From positions 310,001 through 374,000 of the forward strand of contig NC_014377.1 in NCBI RefSeq assembly GCF_000144645.1: DNA of 64,000 nt, written 5' to 3'. The translations under genes were made by a program, and so were the position numbers. Below the pieces are notes generated by a model that did not search any database, was not told the DNA's origin, and was given only the letters and a program-made list of their open reading frames with translations. This stretch comes from Thermosediminibacter oceani DSM 16646 (lineage in GTDB: Bacteria > Bacillota > Thermosediminibacteria > Thermosediminibacterales > Thermosediminibacteraceae). Each line of letters starts with the position of its first letter. The first letter of the stretch is position 1. Below, one piece after another: positions 1-43,267 of this stretch.

Positions 1-105
1 AGGTGCGGGCACCGCGATGAAGTCGTCACCCTGGAGCCTGAAAAATACAGGGGACAAAAGATCGATTATTTGTCCGTCATAATCGGAAAGAAGGTGAAGC
101 CATGA
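1..105 (+). CDS. cbiL: Cobalt-precorrin-2 C20-methyltransferase, 3' end only
   Basis: An open frame enters from the left edge and stops at the TGA of 103-105, giving the last 34 residues of a protein that ends with LSVIIGKKVKP. The stop overlaps the ATG of cbiF (ATGA), so the two are translationally coupled. The tail (charged stretch, then a short hydrophobic strand ending in a basic tip) fits the C-terminus of CbiL/CobI methyltransferases, and cbiL commonly precedes cbiF in clostridial cob operons. The family assignment rests mainly on gene order because so little protein is visible; CbiE/CbiT or another methyltransferase cannot be excluded. Confidence 0.5.
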   Translation, partial: RCGHRDEVVTLEPEKYRGQKIDYLSVIIGKKVKP

Positions 106-1897: not shown

Positions 1898-2625
1898 GCT
1901 GGATAAAGGTGGTGGGCATCGGCCCCGGCAGTTCGGAAGACCTGACCTTTAGGGCCGCAAAAGCCTTAAAAGACTCCGATGTCGTAGTGGGATATACGAC
2001 CTACATAAATCTCATAAAGCCCCTTATCGAGGGCAAGATGGTGATCGTATCGGGCATGAGAGATGAGGTAGAAAGATGCAGGAAAGCCCTGGAGCTTGCC
2101 GGAAAAGGGTTGAAGGTAAGCCTGGTGAGCGGCGGAGACCCGGGCGTGTACGGCATGGCAGGCCTGCTCCTGGAAGTAGCTCTGAAAGGCGGTGCGCAGA
2201 CGGAGATCGAGGTCATACCCGGTGTCAGCGCCGTAAATTCGGCGGCAGCCATTCTGGGGGCGCCGCTGATGCAGGATTTTGCCGTTGTGAGCCTCTCCGA
2301 CCACCTGGTGCCTTGGGAGGTTATCGAAAAAAGGCTCTCATTGGCGGCCCAGGCCGATTTTGTCATCGCCATATACAACCCCGGGAGCTCGGAAAGGCCG
2401 GAAAACCTCTCGAGGGCCTGGGAGATTTTGATGCGCCATAAAAAGCCGGATACGCCGGTGGGTATAGTGAGAAAGGCTTCGAGAGAAGGTCAGTCGGTGG
2501 CGATCACAAGACTCGACAAATTGCCGGAATATAACGTGGACATGAGCACCATCGTCGTAGTCGGTGGCGAAAGTACCTTCATCAGCGGCCGGTGGATCAT
2601 AACTCCCCGGGGGTACAGGGTATGA
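1894..2625 (+). CDS. cbiH: Cobalt-precorrin-3B C17-methyltransferase CbiH
   Basis: A 243-residue tetrapyrrole methylase that methylates C17 with ring contraction. Visible motifs are VGIGPGSSEDLTFRA near the N-terminus, VSGGDPGVYGMAG near residue 77 and YNPGSSERPENL near residue 163, a CbiH/CobJ signature. It has no fused CbiG or nitrite-reductase-like extension; length is that of the plain enzyme. Start and stop overlap both neighbours by 4 nt (ATGA). Confidence 0.95.
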   Translation: MSWIKVVGIGPGSSEDLTFRAAKALKDSDVVVGYTTYINLIKPLIEGKMVIVSGMRDEVERCRKALELAGKGLKVSLVSGGDPGVYGMAGLLLEVALKGGAQTEIEVIPGVSAVNSAAAILGAPLMQDFAVVSLSDHLVPWEVIEKRLSLAAQADFVIAIYNPGSSERPENLSRAWEILMRHKKPDTPVGIVRKASREGQSVAITRLDKLPEYNVDMSTIVVVGGESTFISGRWIITPRGYRV

Positions 2626-3380
2626 TACTCGTCCTGGCAGGGACAAAAGACGGCCGGTTGCTGGCGGAAAAATTGTCGTCGATGGGTTTTGAGGTCTTCG
2701 CCAGCGTTGTCACCGATTACGGCGGGCAGCTCCTGGGGGAAAGGGTGAGGGTGAGGATAGGGCCTTTCGGCGATACGGGTCTTAGGGAATTCATCGCCCG
2801 TCGCGGTATCAGGGTTGTGGTCGATGCCACCCACCCGTTTGCGAAGGATATAAGCCTGAAGGCCATAGAGGTCACAAGGCAGATGGGGGTAAAGTACATA
2901 AGGTATGAGCGAAAAGAATCCGCAAGGGAATATTACACAGGCGTTATAATGGCGAGGGACTTCGAAGATGCGGCGCAAAAAGCCGCCGAATTCCACACCA
3001 TCTTTCTCACTATAGGCAGCAGGAACCTGGAAAAATTCGCCGGGCTAAAGGGCATGGGGAAAAAGCTGGTGGTGAGGGTTCTTCCCACCAGTGAAGTTCT
3101 GAAAAAATGCGAACAACTCGGTTTTTCGCCCGGGGAGATCATAGCCGCCCGGGGACCCTTCAGCGCGGAGATGAACTACCTGATGTTCAGGGATTACGGA
3201 ATCGATGCGGTGGTGAGTAAGGAAAGCGGCCCGGAAGGAGGCGTGCCGGAAAAGCTCGAGGCTGCACGGAGGCTTGGAATTCCGGTCATTTTAATCCAGA
3301 GACCTCCCCTGGTTTATCCGGTTGTCGTAAATAACATGGAAGACCTTCTGAAGGAGATGGGGAATGACGATGGGTCTTGA
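2622..3380 (+). CDS. cbiJ: Cobalt-precorrin-6A reductase CbiJ (CobK family)
   Basis: A 252-residue reductase that reduces the corrin macrocycle with a pyridine nucleotide. It begins MILVLAGTKDGRLLA, the dinucleotide-binding start of CobK/CbiJ, and has VDATHPFAKDIS near residue 67 and AARGPFSAEMN near residue 175, both family hallmarks. I chose the ATG at 2622 because it overlaps the cbiH stop as ATGA; an upstream in-frame start at 2592 would only add an unconserved 10-residue leader inside cbiH. The 3' end overlaps hemA by 17 nt. Confidence 0.92.
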   Translation: MILVLAGTKDGRLLAEKLSSMGFEVFASVVTDYGGQLLGERVRVRIGPFGDTGLREFIARRGIRVVVDATHPFAKDISLKAIEVTRQMGVKYIRYERKESAREYYTGVIMARDFEDAAQKAAEFHTIFLTIGSRNLEKFAGLKGMGKKLVVRVLPTSEVLKKCEQLGFSPGEIIAARGPFSAEMNYLMFRDYGIDAVVSKESGPEGGVPEKLEAARRLGIPVILIQRPPLVYPVVVNNMEDLLKEMGNDDGS

Positions 3381-4629
3381 AGAAATTGTCGTCACGGGAA
3401 TAGACCACAGGGTGCCCGTGGAGATAAGGGAAAGGGTGGCAATAAAGCAGCGGGACCTTTTCGACTGCCTTTCCCGGTTAAAAGGCACCGAAGGCGTGCG
3501 GGAAGCGGTGATATTATCCACCTGCAACAGGACCGAAGTCTATCTGGTCGCCGAAAAAGAGGCCCGGAACTGGGCAGGAGATTTTTTGATCGGCCTTTCT
3601 GGCGCAGAAAAGGATGAATTGAGTCAAAATCTTTTCACGCTTTCCGGAAAGGATGCCGCCCTCCACCTTTTCCGGGTGGCGTGCGGGCTGGAGTCCATGG
3701 TGCTGGGGGAAGACCAGATCCTGGGGCAGGTGAGGGAAGCCTGGGAAAAGGCACTGGAAGCGGGAGCCTCGGGGAAGATATTGAACAGGCTGTTTTCGGA
3801 TGCGGTTGCCCTGGGCAAGAAGGCGAGATTCGAAACCCGCATATCCGATCATCCCCTTTCCATCAGCTATATAGCGGTAAAGTTTGTAGAAGACGTCCTG
3901 GGAGGACTTTCCGGAAGGACCGCCTTCGTAATCGGTGCCGGAGAAATGGCAAGGATTGCGATAAAATACCTCATCCAGAAGGGTATCGCTCATGTTTCGG
4001 TGTCCAACAGGACCCACGAAAGAGCCCTTAACCTGAAAAGAGAGATACCGGAAATTACCGTAGTTCCCTATGACCAAAAATACGAAAAGATAGCCTCAAG
4101 CGACATAGTCATCAGTGCAACCGATGCGCCCCATTATACGGTGGATTACGATAAATTCAAAGCAGCCTACCGGGGCGGAAGGGTCTGCATGGTGGACCTG
4201 GCCGTTCCCAGAGACATCGATCCCCGGATAGGGAGTATACCGGGCGTGAGCCTCTTCACCCTCGACGACCTGAAAATGGCGGCAGTGGAAAACGAAAACC
4301 AAAGGCGCAAACTGGCAGCGGTGATCGAGGAAATGGCTAAGGCGGCCCTCGAAGATTACGTGAAATGGTACAGCTGCCTGGCTGTAGTACCGGTTATTAA
4401 ACAGCTGAATAAATACGTGGAAGGTGTATGCCTTGCGGAATTCGAAAAGGTTAACGGCAAACTCCCGGAAATGGGCGACAGAGAAAGAAGGCACATCAAG
4501 AAAGCCCTGGACCGGGTGGGTGCAAAAATAGCGGCCCGATACCTCTCGGCGTTGAAATTCCTGGCCGAAAACGGGAAGATCGACTCCGATGTGGTGGCGG
4601 CCTTTCAGTGGGGTGATACCAACGGGTAG
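3364..4629 (+). CDS. hemA: Glutamyl-tRNA reductase HemA
   Basis: A 421-residue NADPH-dependent enzyme that reduces glutamyl-tRNA(Glu) to glutamate-1-semialdehyde, the first committed step of C5 tetrapyrrole synthesis. The catalytic cysteine is C54 within STCNRTEVY. GLESMVLGEDQILGQ (about residue 110) and the Rossmann motif VIGAGEMARIA (about residue 190) follow, with a helical dimerisation domain at the C-terminus. The start lies inside cbiJ, and a second ATG two codons on (3370) is an alternative. The position directly after the cbi genes ties precursor supply to corrin synthesis. Confidence 0.96.
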   Translation: MTMGLEEIVVTGIDHRVPVEIRERVAIKQRDLFDCLSRLKGTEGVREAVILSTCNRTEVYLVAEKEARNWAGDFLIGLSGAEKDELSQNLFTLSGKDAALHLFRVACGLESMVLGEDQILGQVREAWEKALEAGASGKILNRLFSDAVALGKKARFETRISDHPLSISYIAVKFVEDVLGGLSGRTAFVIGAGEMARIAIKYLIQKGIAHVSVSNRTHERALNLKREIPEITVVPYDQKYEKIASSDIVISATDAPHYTVDYDKFKAAYRGGRVCMVDLAVPRDIDPRIGSIPGVSLFTLDDLKMAAVENENQRRKLAAVIEEMAKAALEDYVKWYSCLAVVPVIKQLNKYVEGVCLAEFEKVNGKLPEMGDRERRHIKKALDRVGAKIAARYLSALKFLAENGKIDSDVVAAFQWGDTNG

Positions 4630-5512
4630 GATTGTGAGGGTAGGGAGCAGGGAGAGCAGGTTGGCCCTGGTCCAGACCGAAATAGTCATAAGGTTGTTAA
4701 AGGATCGCCGTCCCGAACTGGAATTCGAAGTCGTTAAAATTAAGACGCAGGGCGATAAACTGCTGGATGTAAATTTGAGCGATGCGGGAGGCAAGGGGGT
4801 TTTCGTAAAGGAGATAGAAGAGGCGCTCCTCGCCGGATCGATAGACCTGGCCGTTCACAGCATGAAGGACGTGCCCTACGAGCTTCCCGAAGGTTTGTGC
4901 ATAGCGGCGGTAACGGAAAGGGAAGACCCCAGAGATGTGCTCATATCGAGAGACAAGAGAAGACTTTTGAACCTGAGGCCCGGGGCGAGGATCGGGACGT
5001 CCAGCCTGAGGCGGTCGGTACAGCTCAAAGCCCTCAGGCCCGATCTAGACATTGTGCCGGTCAGGGGCAACGTCCCGACCAGAATCCGGAAAATGGATGA
5101 CCTGGAACTGGACGGTTTGGTGCTGGCGGCCGCAGGCATAAAGAGGCTCGGCCTGGAGGAACTTATCGCGGAGTATTTTCCACCGGAGGTGATAGTGCCC
5201 GCTGTGGGCCAGGGAGCGCTGGCGGTGGAAGCCAGGAAGGACGACGATATATTGGAATTGGCCGGGCTTGTGAGCCACAAAGCAACCGAGGTTGCCGTGA
5301 GGGCGGAAAGATCCTTCATGAGGGCCCTGGGGGGAAGCTGCCGGGTGCCGCTGGGGGCCTTTGCGAGGGTGGAAGGGACGGTGGTGACCCTGGTAGGAAT
5401 GGTGGAAAAAAACGGAAGCGTCTGCAAGGGCACGATGTCCGGAAAGTTAAAAGAAGCCGAAGAAATCGGGCTGAGACTTGCAGAAAGGCTGGGTGATAGC
5501 AGTGACCGGTAA
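4610..5512 (+). CDS. hemC: Hydroxymethylbilane synthase (porphobilinogen deaminase) HemC
   Basis: An approximately 300-residue enzyme joining four porphobilinogens into hydroxymethylbilane. RVGSRESRLALVQT is the N-terminal active-site segment. AVHSMKDVP and the cofactor-cysteine loop GGSCRVPLGAFA (near residue 240) are diagnostic; that cysteine carries the dipyrromethane cofactor. The start is uncertain: GTG 4610 (20 nt inside hemA) gives a normal-length N-terminus, GTG 4634 would begin MRVGSRES, and an ATG at 4589 has no ribosome site. The 3' end overlaps cobA-hemD. Confidence 0.94.
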   Translation, partial: GVIPTGRIVRVGSRESRLALVQTEIVIRLLKDRRPELEFEVVKIKTQGDKLLDVNLSDAGGKGVFVKEIEEALLAGSIDLAVHSMKDVPYELPEGLCIAAVTEREDPRDVLISRDKRRLLNLRPGARIGTSSLRRSVQLKALRPDLDIVPVRGNVPTRIRKMDDLELDGLVLAAAGIKRLGLEELIAEYFPPEVIVPAVGQGALAVEARKDDDILELAGLVSHKATEVAVRAERSFMRALGGSCRVPLGAFARVEGTVVTLVGMVEKNGSVCKGTMSGKLKEAEEIGLRLAERLGDSSDR

Positions 5513-7058
5513 GGTTTATCTCATAGGCGCCGGCCCCGGAGACCCCGGGCTTTTGACCCTCAAAGCCGTCCGGGTGCTGAAGAAGGCCGATGCGGTGCTG
5601 TACGACCGGCTCATGAATAGGGAGATCCTGACTCTGGCAAGAAAAGATGCTGAACTCATCGATGTGGGAAAGGCTCCGGATAACCACCCCGTGCCCCAGC
5701 ACAGGATTAATGAAATACTGCTGGAAAAAGCTTTAAAGGGCATGACCGTAGTCAGGTTAAAGGGCGGAGACCCTTTCGTTTTCGGCAGGGGGAGCGAGGA
5801 AGCCCTTTACCTGACGGAGAGAGGAGTGCCGGTGGAAGTGGTGCCGGGGGTTACTTCAGCCATCGCGGTGCCGGCTTACGCCGGGGTACCGGTAACCCAC
5901 CGCGGCATCAGTTCCTCCTTTCACGTAATTACGGGGAGCGACGGCTGTGGGGAGAGGGCGGACTGGGATTCCCTATCCCGCTTGAAAGGCACCCTGATTT
6001 TCCTGATGGGAGTAAAGAACCTGGAATCAATCGTCAGCAACCTTTTAAAATACGGAAAGCCGGCGGACACCCCGGCCGCTATGATCATGTGGGGTGCCAC
6101 TCCTGCCCAGAAGACGGTGACGGGCACTCTGGCCGATATAGTCCGCAGGGTGAAAGAGGCGGGCATCAAAAACCCGGCGGTTTTTGTCGTCGGCGGTACG
6201 GTTGGCCTGTGGGAGTATTTAAACTGGTTTGAGGGGAAACCCCTCCACGGCCGGAGGATACTGGTGACGGGAACAATCGACGCGGAAAAGGGCCAACCGG
6301 AGGACGGCCCCTTTGACTTCCTTGAAGACGCCGGGGCCGAAGTCATCCACTGCCCCACCGTAAAAATAGAGTTCGATTACGGGGAAACGGCCGGGTTTTT
6401 AGCAAATGCGGGGGACCTAAACCTTCTCGTGTTTACAAGCAAGAACGCCGTTACGGCCTTTGCCGGAGCCATGAGGCGGATGAGGCTGGACCTGAGGAGG
6501 CTCGGCGGTGCTACGGTGGCGGCGGTGGGTAGGAAGACGGCGGAAAGACTCGAGGAAGTGTTTATTTACCCCGACCTGGTACCGGAAGAATTCACTTCAA
6601 AAGACCTGCTTGAAAAAATACCGGCCGGTGGAGGCGGTAAAAGGACCGCCGCCGTCATCACCTCGGATATCGGAGGACAGGAACTCGTAGGCGGATTGGA
6701 GGCCAGGGGATACCGGGTAATGAAAATCGCAGCCTATAAAAATCTGCCCAACTACGACGTGAGAGAGAGGCTCATCGAAGAACTGGGAAAAGGCGTGGAT
6801 GCGGCGGTTTTTACCAGTCCCTCGTCCTTTTACCGTATGGAGCAAATGGTGGGAAAACTGCCCGAGAAGCTGAAAAAAGTTTTCATCGCCGCGATAGGTC
6901 CGACAACGGCGGCGGCCATAGAGAAAACGGGATTGAAAGTGGACGTATGTCCAAAGGAGCATACGCTGGAAGGGCTCCAAAAGGCCCTTCTAGAGAAATT
7001 TGTTGGGAGAGGTGAAGGAGATGGAGGTAATAAAAAGGCCCAGGAGATTGAGATATAA
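5502..7058 (+). CDS. cobA-hemD: Fused uroporphyrinogen-III C-methyltransferase / uroporphyrinogen-III synthase
   Basis: A 518-residue bifunctional protein. Residues 1 to about 245 are SUMT ([49 protein letters not shown]), which makes precorrin-2. Residues about 250-510 are HemD-type ([46 protein letters not shown]), which closes hydroxymethylbilane to uroporphyrinogen III. The fusion is common in Firmicutes and places the branch-point product next to the enzyme committing it to siroheme and B12. GTG 5502 is preferred because it starts [16 protein letters not shown] 5493 is an alternative. Confidence 0.94.
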
Positions 7059-7995
7059 CACCACCGTAAGGGAAATGGTGAGGGAAACTTGTTTGGATGT
7101 AAAGGACCTTATTTATCCCCTCTTTGTGGCGCACGGGGAGAACATAAAGCAGGAAATTGATTCCATGCCCGGCGTATACCGGTATTCTATCGACCGGCTG
7201 CCGGAGGAAGTGAAGGAGATAAGAGAGCTCGGCATACCTGCCGTACTTTTATTCGGGGTGCCCGCTTCAAAAGATGAATTCGGCAGCGAGGCGTATTCCG
7301 ACGACGGCATAGTCCAGAGGGCGGTGCGGGTCATAAAGGAAGCGGAACCGTCCCTCGTTGTAATAACCGATGTATGCCTCTGCGCCTATACGAGCCACGG
7401 CCACTGCGGTGTGGTGAGAAACGGACGTATCGAAAACGACGAAACCGTTAAGTTAATAGCCCGGACAGCCCTGTCACACGTAAAAGCGGGTGCCGATATG
7501 GTGGCGCCGTCGGATATGATGGACGGTCGCGTGAGGGGCATCAGGCAGCTGCTGGACGGTGAAGGTTTCAGCCATGTGCCCGTAATGGCCTACAGTGCCA
7601 AGTATGCCTCGTCCTTTTACGGACCTTTCAGGGAAGCCGCCCATTCGGCGCCTATGTTCGGAGACAGGAGATCGTACCAGATGGACCCTGCCAACTCCAA
7701 CGAAGCAATGAGAGAGATCGAGCTCGACATCCTGGAGGGTGCCGACATAATCATGGTAAAGCCCGCCTTGGCATACCTGGACGTCATAAGGCGGGCAAAG
7801 GATCGCTTCGGGGTACCGCTGGCGGCGTACAACGTTAGCGGGGAGTATTCTATGATAAAGGCTGCGGCGAGTATGGGATTTTTGGACGAAAAAACTTCGG
7901 TCTTAGAAGCGCTGACCTCCATAAAAAGGGCCGGGGCCGACCTTATCATAACGTACCATGCAAAGGAAGTAGCCCGATGGCTTACTACCCGGTGA
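7021..7995 (+). CDS. hemB: Delta-aminolevulinic acid dehydratase (porphobilinogen synthase) HemB
   Basis: A 324-residue enzyme condensing two 5-aminolevulinates to porphobilinogen. The cysteine-rich [13 protein letters not shown] (about residue 118) indicates a zinc-type active site. The two Schiff-base lysines sit in [15 protein letters not shown] and [14 protein letters not shown]. The start at ATG 7021 follows GAGAGGTGAAGG; an upstream in-frame TTG at 7000 only adds residues overlapping cobA-hemD. The 3' end overlaps sirC by 19 nt. Confidence 0.96.
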
Positions 7996-9851
7996 TGCTC
8001 GATTTGAGAAACAAAAAATGCCTGGTGGTCGGTGCGGGTGCCGTGGCCTACCGGAAGATCAGGTCCCTGCTGGAATGCGGTGCGGCTGTTACCGTAATAG
8101 CGACAAAGATAAATAAAGATATAAGGGAGCTGGGCGAAAAAGGCAGGATTGTAATCCTGGAAAGGTGCTACTCCGTTGGGGACCTGGAGGGTTTTTTCAT
8201 GGCCTTTGCGGCCTCCGATGACCCGGTGGTTAACCGGCAGGTGGCCGAAGAGGCGGCTCAGCGGGGGATACCTGTCAACGTTGCCGACGACCCCGGGCTC
8301 TCTTCCTTTATCGTGCCCTCGGTACTCAGGCGCGGCGATCTTGCGGTCGCAGTTTCATCGGGAGGCAAGAGCCCGCTGTTGTCAAAGGTTGTCAGGGAAT
8401 GGCTGGAAGGGATCGTGCCGGAAGAGGTCGACGACCTCATTCGGGATCTCGAAAGGGCCAGAGCCGAGGCCAAGGCGGCTAAACTGACACCTGAAGAGAA
8501 GATAAGGCTTTATTATAGCCTTATAAAAGGAAGGGGCTTATTTCGGGGAAAGGGGGATAAAATGAAGTCTTCGGAACTTTTTCAGAGGGCAAAAAAGGTG
8601 ATGCCCGGGGGTGTGAACAGTCCCGTTAGGGCGTTCGGAGCCGTGGGGGGAGACCCGGTTTTCATCAAAAGGGGATTCGGCAGCCGCGTATGGGATGAGG
8701 ACGGTAATGAATATATTGATTACGTGCTGTCCTGGGGGCCGCTGATACTGGGGCACTCCCATCCGGCGGTGGTAGAGGCCTTAAAAAGGCAGGCGGAGCT
8801 GGGCACCAGCTTCGGAGCCTGCACCGAACTGGAAGTGCTTTTGGCCGAAAAGATAAGGGAGGCCGTGCCTTCGATGGAAGTGGTCAGGATGGTCAACTCG
8901 GGCACGGAGGCCACCATGAGTGCCATTAGGCTGGCCAGGGGCTATACGGGGCGAAATCTGATCGTTAAATTTGCAGGATGCTATCATGGCCACTCGGACA
9001 GCCTGCTCATCAGGGCGGGCTCAGGCCTAATCACATACGGAATCCCGGATTCGGGCGGGGTCCCGGAAGATACAGCGAGGTTAACCCTTGTCGCCAGGTA
9101 TAACGACGTCGATATGCTGGAAGAAATATTCGAGGAAAAAGGCCCCGATATCGCGGCGGTCATCGTGGAGCCGGTGGCCGGCAACATGGGGGTGGTGCCT
9201 CCCGAGGAGGACTTTTTGAGAGCATTGAGGGAACTCCCCCGAAAGTACGGAGCGCTTCTAATCTTCGATGAGGTGATAACCGGCTTCAGGGTCTCATACT
9301 CGGGTGCCCAGGGCTATTACGGCATCGAGCCGGACCTGACCACGCTGGGCAAGATAATAGGCGGGGGCCTGCCAGTCGGAGTTTACGGCGGCAGGGAAGA
9401 CATAATGAGGTGCGTATCCCCGGACGGACCTGTGTACCAGGCCGGAACCCTTTCGGGTAATCCCCTGGCCATGGCCGCAGGTTTAACAACCCTGGAGGTG
9501 CTGTCGAAAAACCCGGGCCTTTACGATGAACTGGACCGCAGAGCGGAAAGGCTTTGTAGCGGTTTTAAAGAAGTTATGGAGGATGCCGGCATACCGGTAA
9601 CCGTAAACAGGGTGTGCAGCATGATGACGGTATTCTTCACCGGGGAAAAGGTGAGGAACTACGACACGGCCGTGAAATCGGATACACGGCTTTATGCGGT
9701 CTTCTTCCGGGAAATGCTAAAACAGGGCGTATACCTGCCCCCGGCCCAGTTCGAGGCCTTCTTCCTCTCGGCGGCCCATTCCGACGAAGATATAAAAAAG
9801 ACCATCGAAGCCGCCTGGAACGCTGCGAAAAACCTGAAGAAAAATTATTAA
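7977..9851 (+). CDS. sirC-hemL: Siroheme synthase N-terminal domain (SirC) in one reading frame with HemL
   Basis: A single uninterrupted 624-codon frame. Residues 1 to about 190 form an NAD-dependent precorrin-2 dehydrogenase of the SirC/Met8/CysG-N type: [17 protein letters not shown] (Rossmann loop), [15 protein letters not shown] and [11 protein letters not shown] are clear. At residue 196 a complete HemL begins ([17 protein letters not shown]) with no stop codon between. The start ATG 7977 follows AAAGGAAG and lies inside hemB. A strong ribosome site (AAAGGGGG, about 8550-8556) precedes the internal ATG 8562, so the cell may make a fusion, a separate HemL, or both. A one-base sequencing error at the junction is also possible, since a TAA lies out of frame at 8558-8560. 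Confidence 0.8.
8562..9851 (+). CDS. hemL: Glutamate-1-semialdehyde 2,1-aminomutase HemL (possible internal start)
   Basis: The 429-residue HemL portion is by itself full length. It is a PLP enzyme that converts glutamate-1-semialdehyde to 5-aminolevulinate. [13 protein letters not shown] starts the conserved core, [16 protein letters not shown] binds PLP phosphate, [10 protein letters not shown] holds the cofactor aspartate, and [14 protein letters not shown] contains the Schiff-base lysine. The ATG is 5-6 nt after a near-ideal Shine-Dalgarno run, supporting independent translation even though the frame is open back into sirC. It completes the ALA branch begun by hemA in the same operon. Confidence 0.85.
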
Positions 9852-35051: not shown

Positions 35052-35080
35052 TTGACAACCCGGAATATTTAATATATTAT
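35052..35080 (+). promoter_or_regulatory. Promoter of the cobalamin-uptake operon
   Basis: TTGACA (35052-35057), a 17-nt spacer and TATTAT (35075-35080) form a near-consensus sigma-A promoter. Transcription would start about 35088, some 35 nt before the riboswitch aptamer. Confidence 0.8.
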
Positions 35081-35311: not shown

Positions 35312-35345
35312 CCCTGGTTTATGTTGGAGCCAGGGTTTTTATTTT
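35312..35345 (+). terminator. Riboswitch-controlled terminator
   Basis: CCCTGG (35312-35317) pairs with CCAGGG (35330-35335) and is followed by TTTTTATTTT. It sits 37 nt after the aptamer, the expected place for the expression platform. The segment 35346-35499 holds only short frames (an eight-codon ORF at 35404) before the SLH gene. Confidence 0.85.
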
Positions 35346-35499: not shown

Positions 35500-38400
35500 A
35501 TGCACTATAAAATTAAAAAACGCCTGGTAGCGCTGATTCTGGTCTTTGGTCTTTTATTGAGCATTTCTATAGATGGACAGGTCCTGACTACAGCTCTAGC
35601 TGCCTCGGGAAGTTATACTGCCGACCAGCTGGCCGAAAAGGCCGTGGAGTTTATTAACAGCAAATTCAAATCCGGAGAAAAAGTCGACGGCTACACCGCG
35701 TACGTTCTCGCACTGGCAGGGGAAGATCTTTCGTCCGAAAAGTGGACCAGGAATGATTTAAGCCTGAAGGAGGAGATTCAAAAGTCGGCGGATCTCCTCG
35801 GCAATCAAAACAGTCTCATAACATACATCCTGGCCACGCAGAACGTCGACGGCAGTTTTGGTCCTTATGCCAATGAATACGGCACAAAAGCATCCCTGCA
35901 GGCGCTGGCGATGGTGAAAGGCGACCTGCCGGAAGGGGATATTTCCAAGCAGGTGCAGGAAGCCATCAATAAGGCTATCGACTATTTTAAAGGCCGCTAT
36001 ATGAAGGGAAGCCTGGCTTATGACGCCCAGGGATTTAACTTCGACTATCGCTGTGTGGAGGCACTGGCCGACGCCAGTGAAGACCTGTCCGGATGGGTAT
36101 ATGGTGATAAGTCGCTTAAAAATATAGTCATCGAATCCGCCGAAGCCGCGGCGGATGACGCTGCAGTCCTTGATGCCGTTTACCTTGCGAAAGAGCTGAC
36201 CGCCCTTTACGCGGTAGAACCGCAATCGGATAAAATTGCAACTCTTGCTCAGGCTATTGCGGATAAGAAGAATACCGACGGCGATTCGATTTGGTTTGGG
36301 AACAGCATCTATGACGATGTGATGGTACTGACCGCTCTTGGCAAAGCGGACAAACTTAGCCTTATTGACCGGCAAAAGGCTTTTAATTATCTGGAAAAAT
36401 TCAAACATGAGCATAAGGACGCCTGGGGAAAACCCGCCGGGGCCGCATGGGGTGACTTTGAAGACGAAGAGCCCGACCTTACGGCCCAGGTGATTACGGC
36501 CTTAAGCTATTTTGAGGAGGCTCGCGATACCGGTAGCGATGTCTATAAAGCCATCGAGGAAGGCCTTGCTTATCTAAAGGATATCCAGGACGCTGACACG
36601 GCGGCCATAAAAGCCCGGTTCGACAACACTTTTGCCACCGCCGAAACCCTCATAGCTTTAAAATCGCTGGGGAAGAAATATGAAGATTATGCCGGAGCAG
36701 GTTCCGGCTGGGTGAAAAGATCGGGGACGAAGACCATTGCCCAGCACCTGCTAGCTTTAAGCCGCATGGGGGACGAGGATAGGGTAAACAGGCTGGTAAA
36801 TCTTTTAACGGAAAGGCATTCTTCGAACGGCTTTGACAACAGCGTTTACACCGACTTTTGGGCGTATATAGCGCTGGGCGAAGCGGGGAAGATAAAAGAA
36901 ATAAATGCGGAGGAAGCCAAAAGCTACATACTGGGTAAGCAGAGCGATGAAGGTTCCTGGGGAGAAAAATGGGGCGACGCATTTTACCCCGACTTTATGT
37001 CGACCGCTCAGGCCATTCGGGCGCTCACCTACCTATCCGCTTCAGGGGATACAAAGGTTCAGAATGCCATAGAAAAAGGCCTGGCTTATCTCAAAAGACA
37101 ATTGCAGCCCGACGGCAGCGTCTATATTACACAGCCGTTTCCGGACGATCCGGTGGTGGATACGGCCGAGGTAATTGTTACGCTGAAAAAATTGGGCGTC
37201 GATCCGAAGGAATGGAAGAGCGGCCAGGGCCTTACCCCCGTCGACTATATGATGCAGAAAGCGTTGAATTCCGACGGCAGTTTCGGTTCCGTCAAAAATA
37301 TTCTGGGTGCTGCGGAAGCCCTGCACGCATTTATCCTCTTGAAGGGCGAGACCGGATCGCCGGGGTCAGAGCCGGGATCTTCCGAGCCGGTTCCCGGTGA
37401 GGTTGAGTGCACCGTGGATATCGCGGTTGTGGGCAGGGATGGTGAGCTGCTCTTTGGCCCCGATTCCGTCACCGTAAGCCGGAACGGAAGGTGGGGATTG
37501 ACGGCCTTAGGTGCTCTGGATGCCACCGGCCTTGATTACGAGTGTGACGGCGGTTTTGTAAAGAGCATCGAAGGCCAGGCCAACCAGGGAATGAATGGGT
37601 GGATGTACAAGGTCAACGGAAAAGTGCCGTCGGTGGCGGCATCGGAAAAGGCGATTGGCGACGGGGATGAAATCATCTGGTGGTACAGCACGGATTATAG
37701 ATCATCAGGCCCCACGTGGGAAGACCTGATAAATAAAAATACGGTTCCGGAGCAGGAGGGGGTCGTTTCCGAGGACCTCGAAGAGCAGAACGAAAGACTT
37801 CCGGAGACCTTGCGGGTTTCCAAAGAAGCGCTGAAAGCCCTTGAAAATGTGGAGGAATTGCTCGAATTACAAAAAGCAGCGGGTATTGAAGAGATAGACA
37901 AAGCGGTTGTAGTCATCGGAAGCCGCGGACCGTTCAAACGCGACGAATTCTTGAAGTTAAAAGAAAAGCTTCTGCAAAACAGGGTAGATTTGCAGAAAGA
38001 GGTAGCTGCCTCTGAAGGTGCAGCCATCGTCGACGGAAAAGAGGAAGTTGCCCTCCTCGTTCCGGCCGGTGCATTGAAAAAGGATTTAGAAATATCGATC
38101 AAAGAGACCGACGGTACAATTCCCCCTGGTTTCAAAGCTTTATCGGGCATTTACGAAATTGCCCCTGAAGCAACCTCTCTTTCAATGCCCGCAACATTGG
38201 CAATAAGAGCGGCCGTCTCTCCCCTGGTAAAGCCGGAAAATCTGGTCCTGGCGCGGTATGATGATACAGAAGGCAGGTGGGTTGTCATCCCTGCCGTGGC
38301 CGACATGGCAAAAGGCGTCATTGTGGCCAGGATAGAACATTTCTCGAAAGTTGCCGTGTTTGCAAAGGAAGTCAGAAAATCCTTTGCGGATGTGAGCGAC

Positions 38401-38913
38401 GCGTCCTTCGGATGGGCCAAAGACGCCGTTGAAGCCCTGGCCGGTTCCGGGATTGTTACGGGAGTTTACGGGACTTTCTTCGAGCCGGGTCGAGCGTTGA
38501 CCAGGGCTGAGTTCGTCACCATGATTGTAAAAACCCTGGGCCTCGAGCCTAAGGCGGGCGAAGGAAGACAATTCAAAGACGTAAAAAAAGGCGCTTGGTA
38601 CGAGAAAGCCGTATACGCCGCGGTAGATGCGGGGCTTGTAACCGGATACGAAGACGGCACCTTCCGGCCGGACGGCAAAATTACTAGAGAACAACTCGCG
38701 GTTATCCTTGCCCGGGCGGTCGGTTTTACTCCCTCCGGGGAAAATCCGGATTTTAAAGATGGAAAATCGATTTCGCCCTGGAGCAGGGGGAGCGTTGCAG
38801 CTGCCGTAGCCGGTGAGTTGCTCGAAGGATTTGAAGATGGGACCTTCCGGCCCAAAGCGGCGGTCAGCAGAGCTCAAGCCGCTGTCGTAATCTACCGCTT
38901 CCTGGGGGAATAG
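35500..38913 (+). CDS. SLH-anchored transcobalamin-like protein: toroid repeats + DUF4430 + SLH
   Basis: A 1137-residue secreted surface protein. Domains: signal peptide (1 to about 35, cleavage near ALA-AS); alpha-alpha toroid repeats (about 40-610; repeat marks NVDGSFGPYANEY, SDEGSWGEKWG, QPDGSVYITQP, NSDGSFGSV); Gly/Ser/Pro linker (616-636); DUF4430 (about 638-732: RWGLTALGALDATGLDY, GMNGWMYKVNGKVP, GDEIIWWY); a charged and beta-rich region (740-950, EEVALLVPAGALKKDLEISI); three SLH repeats (about 958-1137; LTRAEFVTMIVKTLG, ITREQLAVILARAVG, VSRAQAAVVIYR). Toroid followed by DUF4430 is the order of transcobalamin and intrinsic factor. Placed first after a B12 riboswitch and before an ECF transporter, it likely captures corrinoids at the S-layer. 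Cobalamin binding itself is inferred. Confidence 0.85.
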   Translation: MHYKIKKRLVALILVFGLLLSISIDGQVLTTALAASGSYTADQLAEKAVEFINSKFKSGEKVDGYTAYVLALAGEDLSSEKWTRNDLSLKEEIQKSADLLGNQNSLITYILATQNVDGSFGPYANEYGTKASLQALAMVKGDLPEGDISKQVQEAINKAIDYFKGRYMKGSLAYDAQGFNFDYRCVEALADASEDLSGWVYGDKSLKNIVIESAEAAADDAAVLDAVYLAKELTALYAVEPQSDKIATLAQAIADKKNTDGDSIWFGNSIYDDVMVLTALGKADKLSLIDRQKAFNYLEKFKHEHKDAWGKPAGAAWGDFEDEEPDLTAQVITALSYFEEARDTGSDVYKAIEEGLAYLKDIQDADTAAIKARFDNTFATAETLIALKSLGKKYEDYAGAGSGWVKRSGTKTIAQHLLALSRMGDEDRVNRLVNLLTERHSSNGFDNSVYTDFWAYIALGEAGKIKEINAEEAKSYILGKQSDEGSWGEKWGDAFYPDFMSTAQAIRALTYLSASGDTKVQNAIEKGLAYLKRQLQPDGSVYITQPFPDDPVVDTAEVIVTLKKLGVDPKEWKSGQGLTPVDYMMQKALNSDGSFGSVKNILGAAEALHAFILLKGETGSPGSEPGSSEPVPGEVECTVDIAVVGRDGELLFGPDSVTVSRNGRWGLTALGALDATGLDYECDGGFVKSIEGQANQGMNGWMYKVNGKVPSVAASEKAIGDGDEIIWWYSTDYRSSGPTWEDLINKNTVPEQEGVVSEDLEEQNERLPETLRVSKEALKALENVEELLELQKAAGIEEIDKAVVVIGSRGPFKRDEFLKLKEKLLQNRVDLQKEVAASEGAAIVDGKEEVALLVPAGALKKDLEISIKETDGTIPPGFKALSGIYEIAPEATSLSMPATLAIRAAVSPLVKPENLVLARYDDTEGRWVVIPAVADMAKGVIVARIEHFSKVAVFAKEVRKSFADVSDASFGWAKDAVEALAGSGIVTGVYGTFFEPGRALTRAEFVTMIVKTLGLEPKAGEGRQFKDVKKGAWYEKAVYAAVDAGLVTGYEDGTFRPDGKITREQLAVILARAVGFTPSGENPDFKDGKSISPWSRGSVAAAVAGELLEGFEDGTFRPKAAVSRAQAAVVIYRFLGE

Positions 38914-38988
38914 TAGATTAATTTGAGGCCGGGGCGCGCTCTATGGTGCGCTCCCGGCTTTGCAACACTTATTCAGTGGGTGATTTCA

Positions 38989-39849
38989 GTGAAAAAGCGA
39001 ACTGTAAAGCTTGCAATTATGGCGTTCTTGTTGGCCGTAGCGGTGGGGTGTGTAATATATGCTCCAAAGATTTTTTATGACACGAAAGAAAGGCCCCTGA
39101 CAGCGGTTAAAGAGAATCAGGCTTTAGTACCCGGTGAAGCGAATACAAACCCGACAAAGGCCGGCACCGGTGAAGCTCCCAATGCTTCAATAGAAGGCCT
39201 TGCAGTGCAGAAAGACGGAGTCCTTACAAACACATCCCCTAAACTGGAAACGGGCACCGGTTCGGGTGGCACTAAGGTTGAAAAGAAGGTCATCGAAAAG
39301 GCTGAGCCTTCCGATGGGTCATCAAAGACCAAAAAGGAAGAGACTTCCGGCACAAAAAAGGAACCTTTCGGCAAAGGGGCTGCTTCCACGGGCGGTGCGG
39401 CGAGTTCTTCTCGCGATGATGCCCCACGGCATGTTCCGGAAAAAAAAGACACTGATAGCAGCGGTGATTCCACAAAGGAAACCGATTCGAGTTCCGCCGG
39501 TGCCGGTGGATGCCGGATTGAAATTGCCATTGTCGGAAAGGGAGGCCGGGTGCTGTACGGCCCTAAAACCGTGACGGTAAAAGAGAACAACCGGTGGGGT
39601 TTGACTGCACTGGGCGCTCTGGATTCCACCGGAATTGATTACAAGACCGGCCAGGGGTACGACGGTTTTGTTGTAAGCATAGCGGGTGAGACGAACAAAG
39701 GCATGGCGGGCTGGATGTACAGCGTCAATGATGAAGTTCCGATGGCAGCGGCCAGTGAGAAAAAAATCGAACCGGGCGACAGGATAATATGGTGGTACAA
39801 TGAGAGCATTAATAACCCCCCTCCCACCTGGGATAGCCTGGCAGAATAG
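38989..39849 (+). CDS. Membrane-tethered DUF4430 protein
   Basis: A 286-residue protein with an N-terminal hydrophobic segment (LAIMAFLLAVAVGCVIYAP), which could be a membrane anchor or a lipobox (AVGC). A 130-residue Ser/Thr/Lys/Glu/Gly linker follows, with a C-terminal DUF4430 domain (about 180-275: RWGLTALGALDSTGIDYKTG, GMAGWMYSVNDEVP, GDRIIWWY). The domain closely resembles the one in the preceding SLH protein. GTG 38989 follows GTGGGTGATTTCA; GTG 38980 is an alternative. It may be the membrane-proximal relay between the S-layer protein and the ECF transporter. Confidence 0.82.
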   Translation: MKKRTVKLAIMAFLLAVAVGCVIYAPKIFYDTKERPLTAVKENQALVPGEANTNPTKAGTGEAPNASIEGLAVQKDGVLTNTSPKLETGTGSGGTKVEKKVIEKAEPSDGSSKTKKEETSGTKKEPFGKGAASTGGAASSSRDDAPRHVPEKKDTDSSGDSTKETDSSSAGAGGCRIEIAIVGKGGRVLYGPKTVTVKENNRWGLTALGALDSTGIDYKTGQGYDGFVVSIAGETNKGMAGWMYSVNDEVPMAAASEKKIEPGDRIIWWYNESINNPPPTWDSLAE

Positions 39850-39861
39850 GGGAAAATCATC

Positions 39862-40791
39862 ATGCTTGACCGCTTTTTTTATAGAGAAAAAGGGCTCTTT
39901 CTGCAGAGCCTTCACCCGTTGTCAGCGCTCGTCTATATCGCGGTTTTGCTGACGCTGGCATTGATGTTCAACCACCCGCTATACCTCCTGGGGTTGCTAT
40001 CGATTACAGTTGCGGCCGTCAAAGCTGTTGATGGGTTTGATGCCTGGAAGACTTTTTTGAAAGTAAGCCTGGGGGCGACTTTTGTTATCATAATTGTGAA
40101 TGCGGTTACCGTGCGCGCCGGACAAACCGTCCTATGGCGGGGGCCGTACATTCCGGTTTTCGGAAGGTTGAACGTTTCATTAGAGGCCGTTTTATTTGGT
40201 GCGGTCATGGGATTAAGGCTCCTTTTAATAATGAGCATATTTTGCCTTTACAATTTTATGATTCATCCCGACCGCGTGCTGGATATGCTTTCCCGCTTTT
40301 CTTCCAAGTCCGGGCTGGTGCTTTCCCTGGCTGCCAGGATGTTTCCCGCTATGGTAAGTCGACTTGACGGCATCAGGGAGGTGCTGACTGCGAGAGGAGT
40401 CGATTTTAATGCCGGAACATTAAAAGAAAAAATGGCAAAATACGCCGTATTAATGAAAATACTGCTTTTAACTTCTCTGGAAGATTCTATGGAGACAGCA
40501 CAGGCCATGTACGCAAGGGCTTTTGGCAGCGGCAGGCGTTCATACTACGTTCGCGAAAACTTGCGACCAAGGGATACCGCATGCCTTGCCGCGAGTCTTG
40601 CCGCACTGGCGACGGCGGCATACGGTTTGGAGAAAGGCTTAGGCACCTTTAGATTTTACCCGCAGTCCGGCAATCTTATTGATGGGCATACGGGTATCGG
40701 GCTCCTTTTTGCCGTAATTTTTCTTTTATGCTTTCCGATACTCTTGAGCTGGGGGTGGCACACTTGCCCATTTTTGAAATCAAAGATCTGA
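39862..40791 (+). CDS. ECF transporter T component (EcfT/CbiQ-like)
   Basis: A 309-residue integral membrane protein. HPLSALVYIAVLLTLALMF, VMGLRLLLIMSIFCLYNF and IREVLTARGVDF are EcfT/CbiQ features. The coupling motifs LTARG and MYARAFGSG (Ala-Arg-Gly type) contact the ATPases. No other EcfT is nearby, so this probably forms a dedicated transporter with the fused ATPase and S component downstream. The 3' end overlaps the ATPase gene. Confidence 0.9.
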   Translation: MLDRFFYREKGLFLQSLHPLSALVYIAVLLTLALMFNHPLYLLGLLSITVAAVKAVDGFDAWKTFLKVSLGATFVIIIVNAVTVRAGQTVLWRGPYIPVFGRLNVSLEAVLFGAVMGLRLLLIMSIFCLYNFMIHPDRVLDMLSRFSSKSGLVLSLAARMFPAMVSRLDGIREVLTARGVDFNAGTLKEKMAKYAVLMKILLLTSLEDSMETAQAMYARAFGSGRRSYYVRENLRPRDTACLAASLAALATAAYGLEKGLGTFRFYPQSGNLIDGHTGIGLLFAVIFLLCFPILLSWGWHTCPFLKSKI

Positions 40792-42428
40792 CTTATTTTT
40801 ACCCGGAAAGCCAAAGGCCCGCATTGAAAGACGTAAACATGAGCATTGAAGAGGGCGAGTTTTTGCTCGTTACCGGCGGTTCCGGCTCGGGGAAATCTTC
40901 TCTGGCGCGGGTGCTGGCCGGCCTGATACCCGGATTTTCCGGCGGCCGCATCAGCGGCAGCGTTTTTTTTCGGGGAAAAGATATAGAGCAAATTGACCGG
41001 CGCACTATGGCAGGAGAGGTAGGGATAGTATTCCAGGATCCGGAAAAACAGCTGGTGAAGACGAGCGTGGAGGCAGAAATTGCGTTCGGCCTGGAAAACC
41101 TTGGCCTTCCTCAGCAGGAAATGGCCCGCCGGGTTGCCGAAGTCATGAGTTTTTTGGGCCTTGCGGATTTGAGGCGAGAGTTTACGGCGAAATTGTCCGG
41201 CGGCCAAAAACAAAAACTTGCCCTGGCTGCAGTCCTGGCCATGCAACCCTCGGTTTTAATTCTCGATGAGCCCACTTCACAGCTGGACCCGGTGGCGGCG
41301 GAGGATTTTTTAAATGTCGTAAAACGTTTGAATGAAGATATGGGCCTCACCGTGATCTTAATAGAACAGCGGCTGGAAAGATGTTTTCATCTTGCCGACA
41401 AAGTTTTGATTATGGAAGATGGAAGAATAAGGTTTGAAGGCACACCTGAGCAGGTGGCGCGTCGGGCGGCGTTTTGTGAAAACCCCTTTATTCCACCGGT
41501 AGCTCGCTTCTTCGGTAAGGTGGGTTTTAATACCATTCCCGTCACTGTAAAAGATGGACGGAGAATGCTGAAACAAAATTTTAACCCTGCTCCGGGAAAT
41601 TTTTCCATGAGCTCTTCAGAAGGGATGCATGAAAGGGAACCGCTCATACGCATGGAAGGAGTCTGGTTTACATATCCCGACGGCAGGGAAGCGCTTCAGG
41701 ATATAAACCTGGAGATTTGCGCCGGAGAGCTAGTGGCAGTGATAGGACCCAACGGGTCGGGCAAATCCACACTCCTCAAAAACATGGCGGGCCTGTTAAA
41801 ACCCGGGCGCGGCCGGGTGATAATGATGGGCAACAAGCAGCCAAAAAGCGCCACTCGAACCACCTGGGACCCCAGCGTGGGTTACCTTTCCCAGAATCCA
41901 AATGATTATCTTTTTCAGGATACTGTAGAGGAAGAATTATTATACACATTAAAAAACTTTGGTATCGCTTCGAACGGAGCGGTTGATGAAATAATAGAAA
42001 AGCTTTCTTTGGGAGACTTTCGGCGCGTAAACCCGCGGGATCTGAGCTACGGTGAACGCCAGAGGGTGGCTCTGGCTTCGGTGCTGGTCACCGGGCCGAA
42101 GCTTTTGCTGCTGGATGAGCCCACCAAGGGGCTGGACTATCGCCTGAAAAGTGACTTGGGGGAGGTGCTGGCGGAGTTCTGTAGACAGGGGGCAGCTGTC
42201 GTGCTGACCACCCATGATGTCGAATTCGCGGCGAAATACGCATCGAGGGTGATCATGCTGTTCTGCGGCAGGGTGATATGTGACGGCCCGGTGCATCAGG
42301 TCCTTTCGGATTCAATTTTTTATTCCACCCAGATCGGCAGGATGTGCCGGGGTTTCGCGGACGGTATTCTGACTCCGGAGGAAGCTTTAGCTGTATTTAA
42401 ACCCGCGTTGGCTAAAATAATTAATTAA
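40764..42428 (+). CDS. Fused double ECF ATPase (EcfA-EcfA)
   Basis: A 554-residue protein with two full ABC cassettes. Cassette 1: Walker A GGSGSGKSS (K44), signature LSGGQKQ (about 144), Walker B LILDEPTSQLD. Cassette 2: Walker A GPNGSGKST (about 329), signature LSYGERQR (about 427), Walker B LLLDEPTKGLD. A linker of about 60 residues joins them. Such fusions replace the EcfA1/A2 pair. TTG 40764 after GGGGGTGG gives a natural start (MPIFEIKDLTYFYP). It energises the adjacent T/S components. Confidence 0.92.
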   Translation: MPIFEIKDLTYFYPESQRPALKDVNMSIEEGEFLLVTGGSGSGKSSLARVLAGLIPGFSGGRISGSVFFRGKDIEQIDRRTMAGEVGIVFQDPEKQLVKTSVEAEIAFGLENLGLPQQEMARRVAEVMSFLGLADLRREFTAKLSGGQKQKLALAAVLAMQPSVLILDEPTSQLDPVAAEDFLNVVKRLNEDMGLTVILIEQRLERCFHLADKVLIMEDGRIRFEGTPEQVARRAAFCENPFIPPVARFFGKVGFNTIPVTVKDGRRMLKQNFNPAPGNFSMSSSEGMHEREPLIRMEGVWFTYPDGREALQDINLEICAGELVAVIGPNGSGKSTLLKNMAGLLKPGRGRVIMMGNKQPKSATRTTWDPSVGYLSQNPNDYLFQDTVEEELLYTLKNFGIASNGAVDEIIEKLSLGDFRRVNPRDLSYGERQRVALASVLVTGPKLLLLDEPTKGLDYRLKSDLGEVLAEFCRQGAAVVLTTHDVEFAAKYASRVIMLFCGRVICDGPVHQVLSDSIFYSTQIGRMCRGFADGILTPEEALAVFKPALAKIIN

Positions 42429-42448
42429 GTATTAAAAGGAAGATGGTT

Positions 42449-43156
42449 ATGAAAAAGATGCTGTCAAAAATTCTGTTCTGGCTCGGCTTTGGGATTATCC
42501 CGATTTTTATGGCGGCTGCCATGTCGGGAAAGACTACTATCTCCGGGGAATGGGGCGTGGCATCTTACATTGTCATCTTTGCCGCCATCGCTTTGATGTA
42601 CCTGGGGTTTGAACTTGAAACTTCGTCTCCCAAAAGAATAGCCGTGATAGCCGTGCTGGGTGCCGTAGGGGCTGCGGGGCGGATTGCCTTTGCTGCCATT
42701 CCCAACATCCAGCCCACCACATTTATAGCGATCGCTTCGGGGTATGTCTTCGGCCCCAGCGCCGGTTTTATGGTGGGTTCAACTGCGGCCCTGGTTTCAA
42801 ACTTTTTTCTAGGGCATGGGCCCTGGACACCGTGGCAGATGTTTGCCTGGGGCCTTGCCGGCTCATCGGCAGGCATCGTAAAACGCCTGTCACCGCATAT
42901 AGGCAAATGGGGTATGGCATTTTTCTGCCTTTTATGGGGGTATTTATTTGGATGGATATTAAACCTGTGGTCCTGGATCGCCTTTGTTAAGCCGTTAAAC
43001 TGGCAGAGTTTTCTCGCAGTCTGCACGGCAAGTTTCTGGTTTGACACTTTGCACGCTGTAGGCAATGCGGCCTTTTACCTGCTGTTTGGCACCAGCTTTA
43101 TGAAAATACTCGAGCGGTTTCGGCACAAAATGGCAGCGACCCAAAAAATTTCTTGA
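42449..43156 (+). CDS. ECF transporter substrate-binding S component, probably cobalamin (CbrT-like)
   Basis: A 235-residue membrane protein with about six or seven helices. GRIAFAAIPNIQPTTFIAIA, GYVFGPSAGFMVGSTAALVS, NFFLGHGPWTPWQMFAWGLA and AFYLLFG are typical of the large S components that occur with DUF4430 genes and B12 riboswitches. It has the size and motif pattern of CbrT-type proteins, not of CbiM or BtuM. ATG 42449 is optimally spaced from AAAGGAAG; ATG 42443 is too close. Cobalamin specificity is inferred from riboswitch and neighbours. Confidence 0.82.
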   Translation: MKKMLSKILFWLGFGIIPIFMAAAMSGKTTISGEWGVASYIVIFAAIALMYLGFELETSSPKRIAVIAVLGAVGAAGRIAFAAIPNIQPTTFIAIASGYVFGPSAGFMVGSTAALVSNFFLGHGPWTPWQMFAWGLAGSSAGIVKRLSPHIGKWGMAFFCLLWGYLFGWILNLWSWIAFVKPLNWQSFLAVCTASFWFDTLHAVGNAAFYLLFGTSFMKILERFRHKMAATQKIS

Positions 43157-43238: not shown

Positions 43239-43267
43239 GGCGGCAGGGTTAACCTTGCCGCCTTTTT
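43239..43267 (+). terminator. Terminator of the cobalamin-uptake operon
   Basis: GGCGGCAGGGTT (43239-43250) directly abuts AACCTTGCCGCC (43251-43262), giving a strong GC stem with a tight loop, followed by TTTTT. Confidence 0.85.

Follow-up and report, generated by a model that had tools for sequence, protein, structure and literature searches.

We analysed a 64,000-nucleotide stretch of DNA (hereafter the window) from Thermosediminibacter oceani DSM 16646, corresponding to bases 310001-374000 of a genome of 2,280,035 bases in a single contig. T. oceani is an anaerobic thermophile that needs yeast extract for growth (PMC3035372; papers are cited here for the accessible parts of their text). 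The window carries an operon whose elements all lie on the forward (+) strand and are given here by their window positions. A cobalamin riboswitch is followed by two open reading frames (ORFs), ORF A and ORF B, both coding for DUF4430 proteins, then by the genes for an energy-coupling factor (ECF) transporter, in the order EcfT/CbiQ, fused EcfA-EcfA′ and S component, and finally by a terminator-like hairpin. A first-pass annotation of the window had singled out the two adjacent DUF4430 genes, and no ligand was named in it. The riboswitch, the CbrT family of the S component and the fold of ORF A, which resembles intrinsic factor, all point to vitamin B12, as does the co-occurrence of DUF4430 with CbrT across genomes. 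On these grounds, we consider it very probable that the locus is a riboswitch-controlled operon for the capture and import of B12 (corrinoids).

The leader begins with a promoter-like site (TTGACA-17-TATTAT, 35052..35080) scoring 11/12 in a consensus scan, a match that alone is no evidence of function. The cobalamin riboswitch aptamer (RF00174, 35140..35258) was detected at 99.9 bits, for a gathering threshold of 31.5 (E = 8.7e-24). Right after the aptamer stands a terminator-like hairpin of 9 pairs (35312..35345), followed by TTTTTATTTT, which is likely the off-switch platform of the riboswitch. This hairpin appears in the predicted fold, and the whole 102-nt stretch was not stabler than its shuffled versions (z = -0.32). 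Further down, the EcfT, EcfA-EcfA′ and S-component genes overlap or stand close together, and the hairpin found 3′ of the operon (43239..43262) has 10 pairs and a T run.

ORF A (35500..38913, 1137 residues) was delineated with Pfam and with our own profiles. It is predicted to be a secreted protein, with a signal-like N-terminus followed by toroid repeats, a DUF4430 domain, a ZU5-like spacer and SLH repeats. An outer alpha/alpha toroid, intrinsic-factor-like, is split into a first part (35596..35805, from alignment with the single-toroid relative L061) and a remainder (36694..37377, from profiles, the L061 alignment and structure alignment), between which a second alpha/alpha toroid is nested (35806..36693). 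The nested toroid is missing from single-toroid relatives: L061 aligns to residues 4-100 and 399-1135 of ORF A only. L061 and L062 both lack it, and L060, of the same family, has it. In the structural model of ORF A, the outer toroid covers residues 11-588 and terpene cyclases align either over 11-588 or over 76-364, the latter marking the nested toroid. The DUF4430 domain (37411..37728), an SLBB domain of the transcobalamin beta-domain type, matches PF14478 at 55.7 bits (Pfam cut-off 23.8), with a Pfam core at residues 667-730 and a range of 638-743 with our own profile. The spacer (37786..38346) was defined by our own ‘mid’ profile; it has no Pfam match in ORF A itself, and the ZU5 Pfam scores in relatives are 20.2 bits for L061 (below the cut-off of 21) and 25.0 for L069 (above it). 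Three SLH repeats close the protein (38374..38904, Pfam SLH 129.1 bits in 3 stretches). CsaB, the enzyme needed for SLH anchoring, is encoded in the T. oceani genome (TIGR03609, 306.7 bits, cut-off 213.1), which supports the prediction, already made in the first-pass annotation, that ORF A is held in the S-layer or wall by these repeats.

Two AlphaFold2 models were built, both as single chains without ligand: the toroid and DUF4430 of L061 (predicted local distance difference test, pLDDT, 84.9) and the toroids and DUF4430 of the window’s own ORF A (pLDDT 87.4). For the L061 model, Foldseek ranks 1-15 were all haptocorrin, transcobalamin or intrinsic factor (best E = 2.4e-9), and the alignments to these animal B12 binders span both domains. 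The L061 toroid alone aligned to haptocorrin (4kki) with Z = 19.1 and a root-mean-square deviation (rmsd) of 3.5 Å over 246 residues. For the window’s own model, haptocorrin came at rank 2, and comparison with intrinsic factor (2pmv) gave Z = 18.8 with 329 aligned residues (rmsd 10.2, model residues 11-705). The models thus support for ORF A a fold of the transcobalamin/intrinsic factor type, toroid then beta domain, through which it may bind B12.

ORF B (38923..39849, 308 residues) is predicted to be a membrane-tethered protein with a lone DUF4430 domain. Its start is probably the GTG at 38980 rather than the TTG at 38923, because relatives begin at matching residues. An N-terminal membrane helix (39001..39072, mean hydropathy 2.45) is followed by a flexible linker of 147 residues (39073..39513), of which 45% are Ser, Thr, Lys or Glu, and by the DUF4430 domain (39514..39840, Pfam 64.1 bits). 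The first-pass annotation had described this long Ser/Thr/Lys/Glu-rich linker correctly and had proposed attachment by an N-terminal helix or a lipid. The helix is borne out and is conserved in relatives. The lipid is not: ORF B has a lipobox-like AVGC at its N-terminus, the Cys is not conserved, and among the 23 proteins of its subtype (B1, see below) only ORF B itself carries it (1/23). A lipoprotein anchor was therefore rejected for this subtype and ORF B was filed as anchored by a membrane helix. In the other subtypes, a lipobox occurs within the first 60 residues in 10/13 B2 and 2/4 B3 proteins. With a contour length estimated near 50 nm, the linker could in principle span the wall.

The three remaining genes code for a coupling protein EcfT of the CbiQ family (39862..40791, PF02361 38.7 bits, cut-off 25), fused EcfA-EcfA′ ATPases (40728..42428, TIGR04520 397.5 bits in two stretches, with TIGR04521 also above cut-off) and an S component (42443..43156) that Pfam labels only loosely (ECF_trnsprt; riboflavin type). 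When the S component was compared with solved structures, the sole strong match was 6fnp_A (E = 4.6e-15); a profile of 24 S-component rows found the same entry at E = 4.3e-27, with the next match at 0.013. We take 6fnp to be the structure of ECF-CbrT, which transports vitamin B12. Published work shows uptake of both cobalamin and cobinamide through ECF-CbrT (PMC5997447). By this family match, EcfT, the two EcfA ATPases and the CbrT-like S component are predicted to form a B12-type ECF transporter. The window’s transporter resembles ECF-CbrT of Lactobacillus delbrueckii in its CbrT-family S component, EcfT and EcfA subunits, and differs from it in that its module is its own and encoded in a single operon, its ATPases are fused, and its predicted partners outside the cell are DUF4430 proteins; in L. 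delbrueckii, the cbrS gene adjoins cbrT (PMC5997447). At another locus (L087:8135-10732), the EcfA ATPases and CbrT are apparently fused in one frame, as is perhaps the case in several other genomes (frames of ~800-1060 residues).

Conservation of the arrangement was followed in 40 loci (L058-L097), chosen by hand, in most cases because a large DUF4430 frame lies near a small one. A riboswitch lies upstream on the same strand in 36 of them; in L082, L086 and L093 the upstream sequence is too short, and L063 truly lacks one. The large protein bears SLH repeats in 39/40 and a second, smaller DUF4430 protein is present in 37/40, so that the different anchoring of two DUF4430 proteins in one operon, noticed at first in the window, is a conserved trait. 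EcfT and the EcfA pair are each found in 36/40 loci and the S component in 35/40; riboswitch, second DUF4430, EcfT, EcfA pair and S component occur all together in 32/40. An additional toroid gene is present in 22/40 loci. Such a separate toroid gene, without DUF4430, stands beside the B gene at L015:5195-6565, where it ends in a Cu_amine_oxidN1 domain, and similar ones are seen at L071-L074, L079 and L084-L086; such a gene might supply the part that B lacks, making a split intrinsic factor. A rule of equal numbers of toroids and beta domains in each operon was dropped after inspection of the profile matches, since L061, L062, L069, L070, L081, L096 and L097 have one toroid per two beta domains. 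In Moorella mulderi (L016:6315-7495), the large gene is broken: a toroid frame and an SLH frame remain, the B gene and the transporter are intact, and no A-type DUF4430 was seen at this locus. At L095:5955-7114, an array of clustered regularly interspaced short palindromic repeats (CRISPR) lies close downstream of the large DUF4430-SLH gene.

The link between DUF4430 and CbrT was then measured in 398 Bacillota genomes, drawn evenly. DUF4430 was found in 126 of them and a CbrT-like gene in 140 (E 1e-3) or 118 (E 1e-20). A CbrT-like gene accompanies DUF4430 in 121/126 genomes at the first threshold and in 115/126 at the second; conversely, 115 of the 118 strong-CbrT genomes (E 1e-20) have DUF4430. 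Fisher’s test gave 3.6e-74 (E 1e-3) and 1.3e-82 (E 1e-20), uncorrected for relatedness. Among the matches listed, the two genes lie within 12 kb of each other in 90/98 genomes and on different contigs in the other eight. CbiD shows little association with DUF4430 (67/126 genomes with DUF4430 versus 115/272 without, p = 0.05), and absence of B12 synthesis is thus unsupported as a mark of the system. In at least eight genomes (G073, G109, G137, G162, G229, G233, G253 and G273), DUF4430 occurs once, within a frame of <200 residues that adjoins the S gene. No toroid gene was seen within the ~3-kb loci around lone-beta proteins beside cbrT in the four genomes inspected.

The DUF4430 domains of ORF A and ORF B are the only two in the T. 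oceani genome. Their profile ranges fall within ~30 bases of those given in the first-pass annotation, and the four motifs listed there as shared (RWGLTALGALD.TG.DY, GM.GWMY.VN..VP, ASEK and GD.IIWWY) are all in both domains. BLASTP aligned them with 62/110 identical positions and 3 gap positions (E = 7e-43), far beyond chance. The annotation had further called them sister domains, born of a duplication within the locus, and had named phylogeny as a check. Identity is ~90% between each domain and its counterpart in the sister species, against 56% between A and B. In a tree of 84 domains, A and B domains form deep separate groups: A1, B1 (including the window’s B), B2, whose motif differs and ends in WWDYH, and B3. 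Trees constrained to join the window’s A and B were rejected (approximately unbiased test, p-AU = 3e-7), as were trees joining three family pairs (p = 0.018). A recent tandem duplication is thereby rejected, and the sister label with it, each domain being closest to its counterpart in other species. What survives of the duplication is an old event, B1 falling with the A-type domains.

B1 as a single clade was allowed in the 84-domain tree (p = 0.59). In a second tree, A1 and B1 fall into a common group (99/99), apart from the other B subtypes, and B2 joins the lone DUF4430 proteins directly beside cbrT (100/95). B1 is not one clade in this second tree, which leaves the branching within the A1/B1 group unsettled. 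The partner type (B1 or B2) changes at least 2 times on the A tree, and both types occur with A1-type partners. Both A and B keep the GWMYxVN and WWYS positions (22/22 or nearly), and each also has conserved positions distinct from those of the other. As judged from sequence, the A and B domains are old paralogues from an older duplication. The simplest reading, which we hold tentatively, is that the lone membrane domain was the first CbrT partner and that in the window’s lineage it was replaced, long ago, by a copy of A’s domain; the order of events is tentative because the alignment is short. For the 84-row tree, domain rows below 50 bits were left out and the window was represented by the operon’s own rows only; the second tree was built after removal of seven rows on long branches and inclusion of eight lone rows. 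The A tree used 31/44 A rows, and L014, from the sister species T. litoriperuensis and taken to be on the same contig as L058, was left out of the trees. The alignments labelled A1 to A4 comprised, respectively, 13/18 double-toroid candidates, 12/14 single-toroid candidates plus L069, 24/36 S components, and 23/54 domains, none from B2 or B3.

Taken together, these elements suggest how the system might operate. When B12 is scarce, the riboswitch would permit transcription; when it is plentiful, the operon would be shut, as the aptamer and the terminator that follows suggest. ORF A, in the S-layer or wall, would trap B12 between its toroid and its DUF4430, in the manner of intrinsic factor and transcobalamin. 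The second beta domain, carried by ORF B on its helix and 147-residue linker, would meet loaded ORF A, help to open the A-B12 complex or take over the B12, and carry it to CbrT. The EcfT/EcfA motor would then drive CbrT-bound B12 inward. The ordered hand-over from A to B to CbrT is an evenly balanced proposal, and the explanation as a whole, capture and import operon with hand-over, appears likely to us. The hand-over, which the first-pass annotation had put forward, is independent of its strict sister claim, which fails by that annotation’s own criterion of phylogeny. Since lone tethered beta domains adjoin cbrT in other Bacillota with no toroid gene seen nearby, the basic partner of CbrT is probably the membrane-tethered beta domain, to which ORF A would have been added as an outer catcher. 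A wider scheme can be imagined, and we offer it as speculation with a limited chance of being right. In this scheme, CbrT-type transporters of Bacillota would normally use extracellular partners of the intrinsic-factor type. The universal partner would be a lone tethered DUF4430 acting as an exchange lid, which takes the place of the outer toroid protein's beta domain over bound B12 and frees the vitamin for CbrT; S-layer bacteria would have added the toroid-beta-SLH catcher, and the window’s lineage would have swapped B2 for a duplicate of the catcher’s domain, B1.

Several observations weigh against a B12 capture system with hand-over. In the ligand-free L061 model, the angle between the domains is unlike the closed form in which animal binders sandwich their ligand, and the whole-chain rmsd is 23-24 Å. 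By sequence, the DUF4430 profile found no match among solved structures. ORF B itself lacks a toroid. Because the S components that went into the CbrT profile stand beside DUF4430, co-occurrence is biased towards linkage, and the 398 genomes are not independent. T. oceani also possesses a CbiD-containing synthesis operon and a BtuF/BtuC-type pair, under other cobalamin riboswitches. Finally, the toroid alone scores higher with terpene cyclases (squalene-hopene cyclases reach Z = 21.9 for L061, versus 19.1 for haptocorrin), and a squalene-hopene cyclase is Foldseek rank 1 for the window model. Together with weak SQHop_cyclase_C and Prenyltrans matches in ORF A, these scores are what a cell-surface terpene cyclase or prenyltransferase, the label that automatic annotation would give the toroid, would have in its favour. 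That ORF A is such an enzyme seems to us extremely improbable: neither DDxxD nor DxDD, the motif of class II terpene cyclases, is present in the window toroids, and DxDD occurs in 3/36 relatives; ORF A is a predicted secreted, SLH-bearing protein behind a cobalamin riboswitch, and the full-length matches of the L061 model, beta domain included, are B12 binders. Cobalt uptake, suggested by the CbiQ/CbiO-type annotation (EcfT matches CbiQ, and ATPase models labelled for cobalt are among the matches of the ATPase), is just as hard to credit, since cobalt is provided for elsewhere by CbiM and CbiQ under their own riboswitch, the S component is CbrT-like and not CbiM, and an intrinsic-factor-like protein would not be needed.

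Import of another corrinoid for salvage, cobinamide or other cobamides, is rather unlikely; ECF-CbrT also imports cobinamide, and CobU and CobT genes stand behind other cobalamin riboswitches of T. oceani, but nothing favours cobinamide over B12 and CbrT takes both (PMC5997447). The 56% identity and common core motifs of A and B would fit redundant copies kept by chance. This is very unlikely given the old split, the persistence of both copies in order in 37/40 hand-picked loci, and the differences in anchors and conserved positions; the first-pass annotation had likewise argued that the two are not redundant, and the split and the separate conserved positions support it there. A more serious possibility, although we lean against it, is that A and B form one surface complex in which B docks loaded A onto the ECF transporter and never holds B12. 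Complexes of paralogous SLBB proteins were proposed in 2007 (PMC1796856), B lacks a toroid, and A1-type proteins are partnered by both B1 and B2, the A tree requiring at least two switches, which would fit a docking role that accepts various domains. On the other side, B keeps the GWMYxVN and WWYS positions of A, and lone-beta proteins stand beside cbrT without a nearby toroid gene, two facts with which docking is still compatible.

The idea of B12 scavenging by such proteins is not new. The 2007 SLBB paper predicted it for bacterial toroid-SLBB proteins, reported that their operons also hold another, paralogous SLBB gene along with CbiO/CbiQ genes, and suggested that the animal B12-binding proteins came from bacteria (PMC1796856). 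The window’s operon is like those operons in its toroid-SLBB protein, its paralogous SLBB protein and its CbiO/CbiQ-type genes. The paper predates the CbrT papers cited here, and the terms ‘riboswitch’, ‘S-layer’ and ‘SLH’ are absent from the accessible part of its text; its hosts were usually without B12 synthesis, whereas here CbiD is found in about half of the DUF4430 genomes. Added here are the CbrT link, a riboswitch, the SLH anchoring tier, co-occurrence across the phylum and the history of B1 and B2, none of which came up in that part of the 2007 text or in our searches of open papers. In those searches, limited to openly licensed papers, no title or abstract shown connected DUF4430 with both the S-layer and an ECF transporter for B12. 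In the accessible parts of a proteomic study of corrinoid starvation in Dehalobacter, ECF (as a term), S-layer, CbrT and transcobalamin are not mentioned (PMC4285132), nor are CbrT, S-layer and intrinsic factor in those of a survey of riboswitch regulons (PMC3766115). ORF A is predicted to share the layout of animal haptocorrin, transcobalamin and intrinsic factor, with an alpha/alpha toroid at the N-terminus and then an SLBB beta domain; unlike them, it is bacterial, carries SLH repeats as its predicted anchor and has a nested second toroid, and its operon also encodes a pump and one more beta domain, carried alone on a membrane helix.

In the usual account of ECF transporters, the membrane S component alone catches the substrate. 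BtuG of Bacteroides is a beta-propeller-type lipoprotein. It captures B12 at the cell surface in cooperation with a transporter, as ORF A is predicted to do; unlike ORF A, it sits at the outer membrane with BtuB (PMC6143338). In our analysis, one ECF class appears tied across Bacillota to extracellular proteins predicted to be built like human intrinsic factor. If true, this would explain how walled, S-layer bacteria gather a rare, large vitamin from outside, give a function to Pfam’s ‘unknown’ DUF4430 in these genomes and bear on the 2007 proposal that animals got their B12 carriers from such bacteria (PMC1796856). It would also provide a concrete two-step transfer that can be tested with purified domains.

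Several other B12 genes are present in the genome. A large cbi/hem operon, which serves to make B12 and tetrapyrroles de novo, spans window positions 102-9851 and L009; it begins with CbiM and CbiQ, and its own cobalamin riboswitch and its CbiD gene lie just upstream of the window. The BtuF/BtuC-type pair stands with CobU behind another cobalamin riboswitch. With this synthesis operon and this pair present, the capture system is not the sole source of B12 and the host is no plain auxotroph. CbiD was not found in the sister species T. litoriperuensis (G015, taken as that species), though the same capture operon is present, and the two species may therefore differ in B12 making. One more cobalamin riboswitch (L008:967-2236) stands ahead of genes for an ECF S component and a protein of AIRS type, which may resemble the alpha-ribazole pair CblT/CblS. 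Elsewhere in the window, G+C content falls to 34% between positions 18000 and 22000, compared with ~50% over most of its length, and this stretch is possibly foreign.

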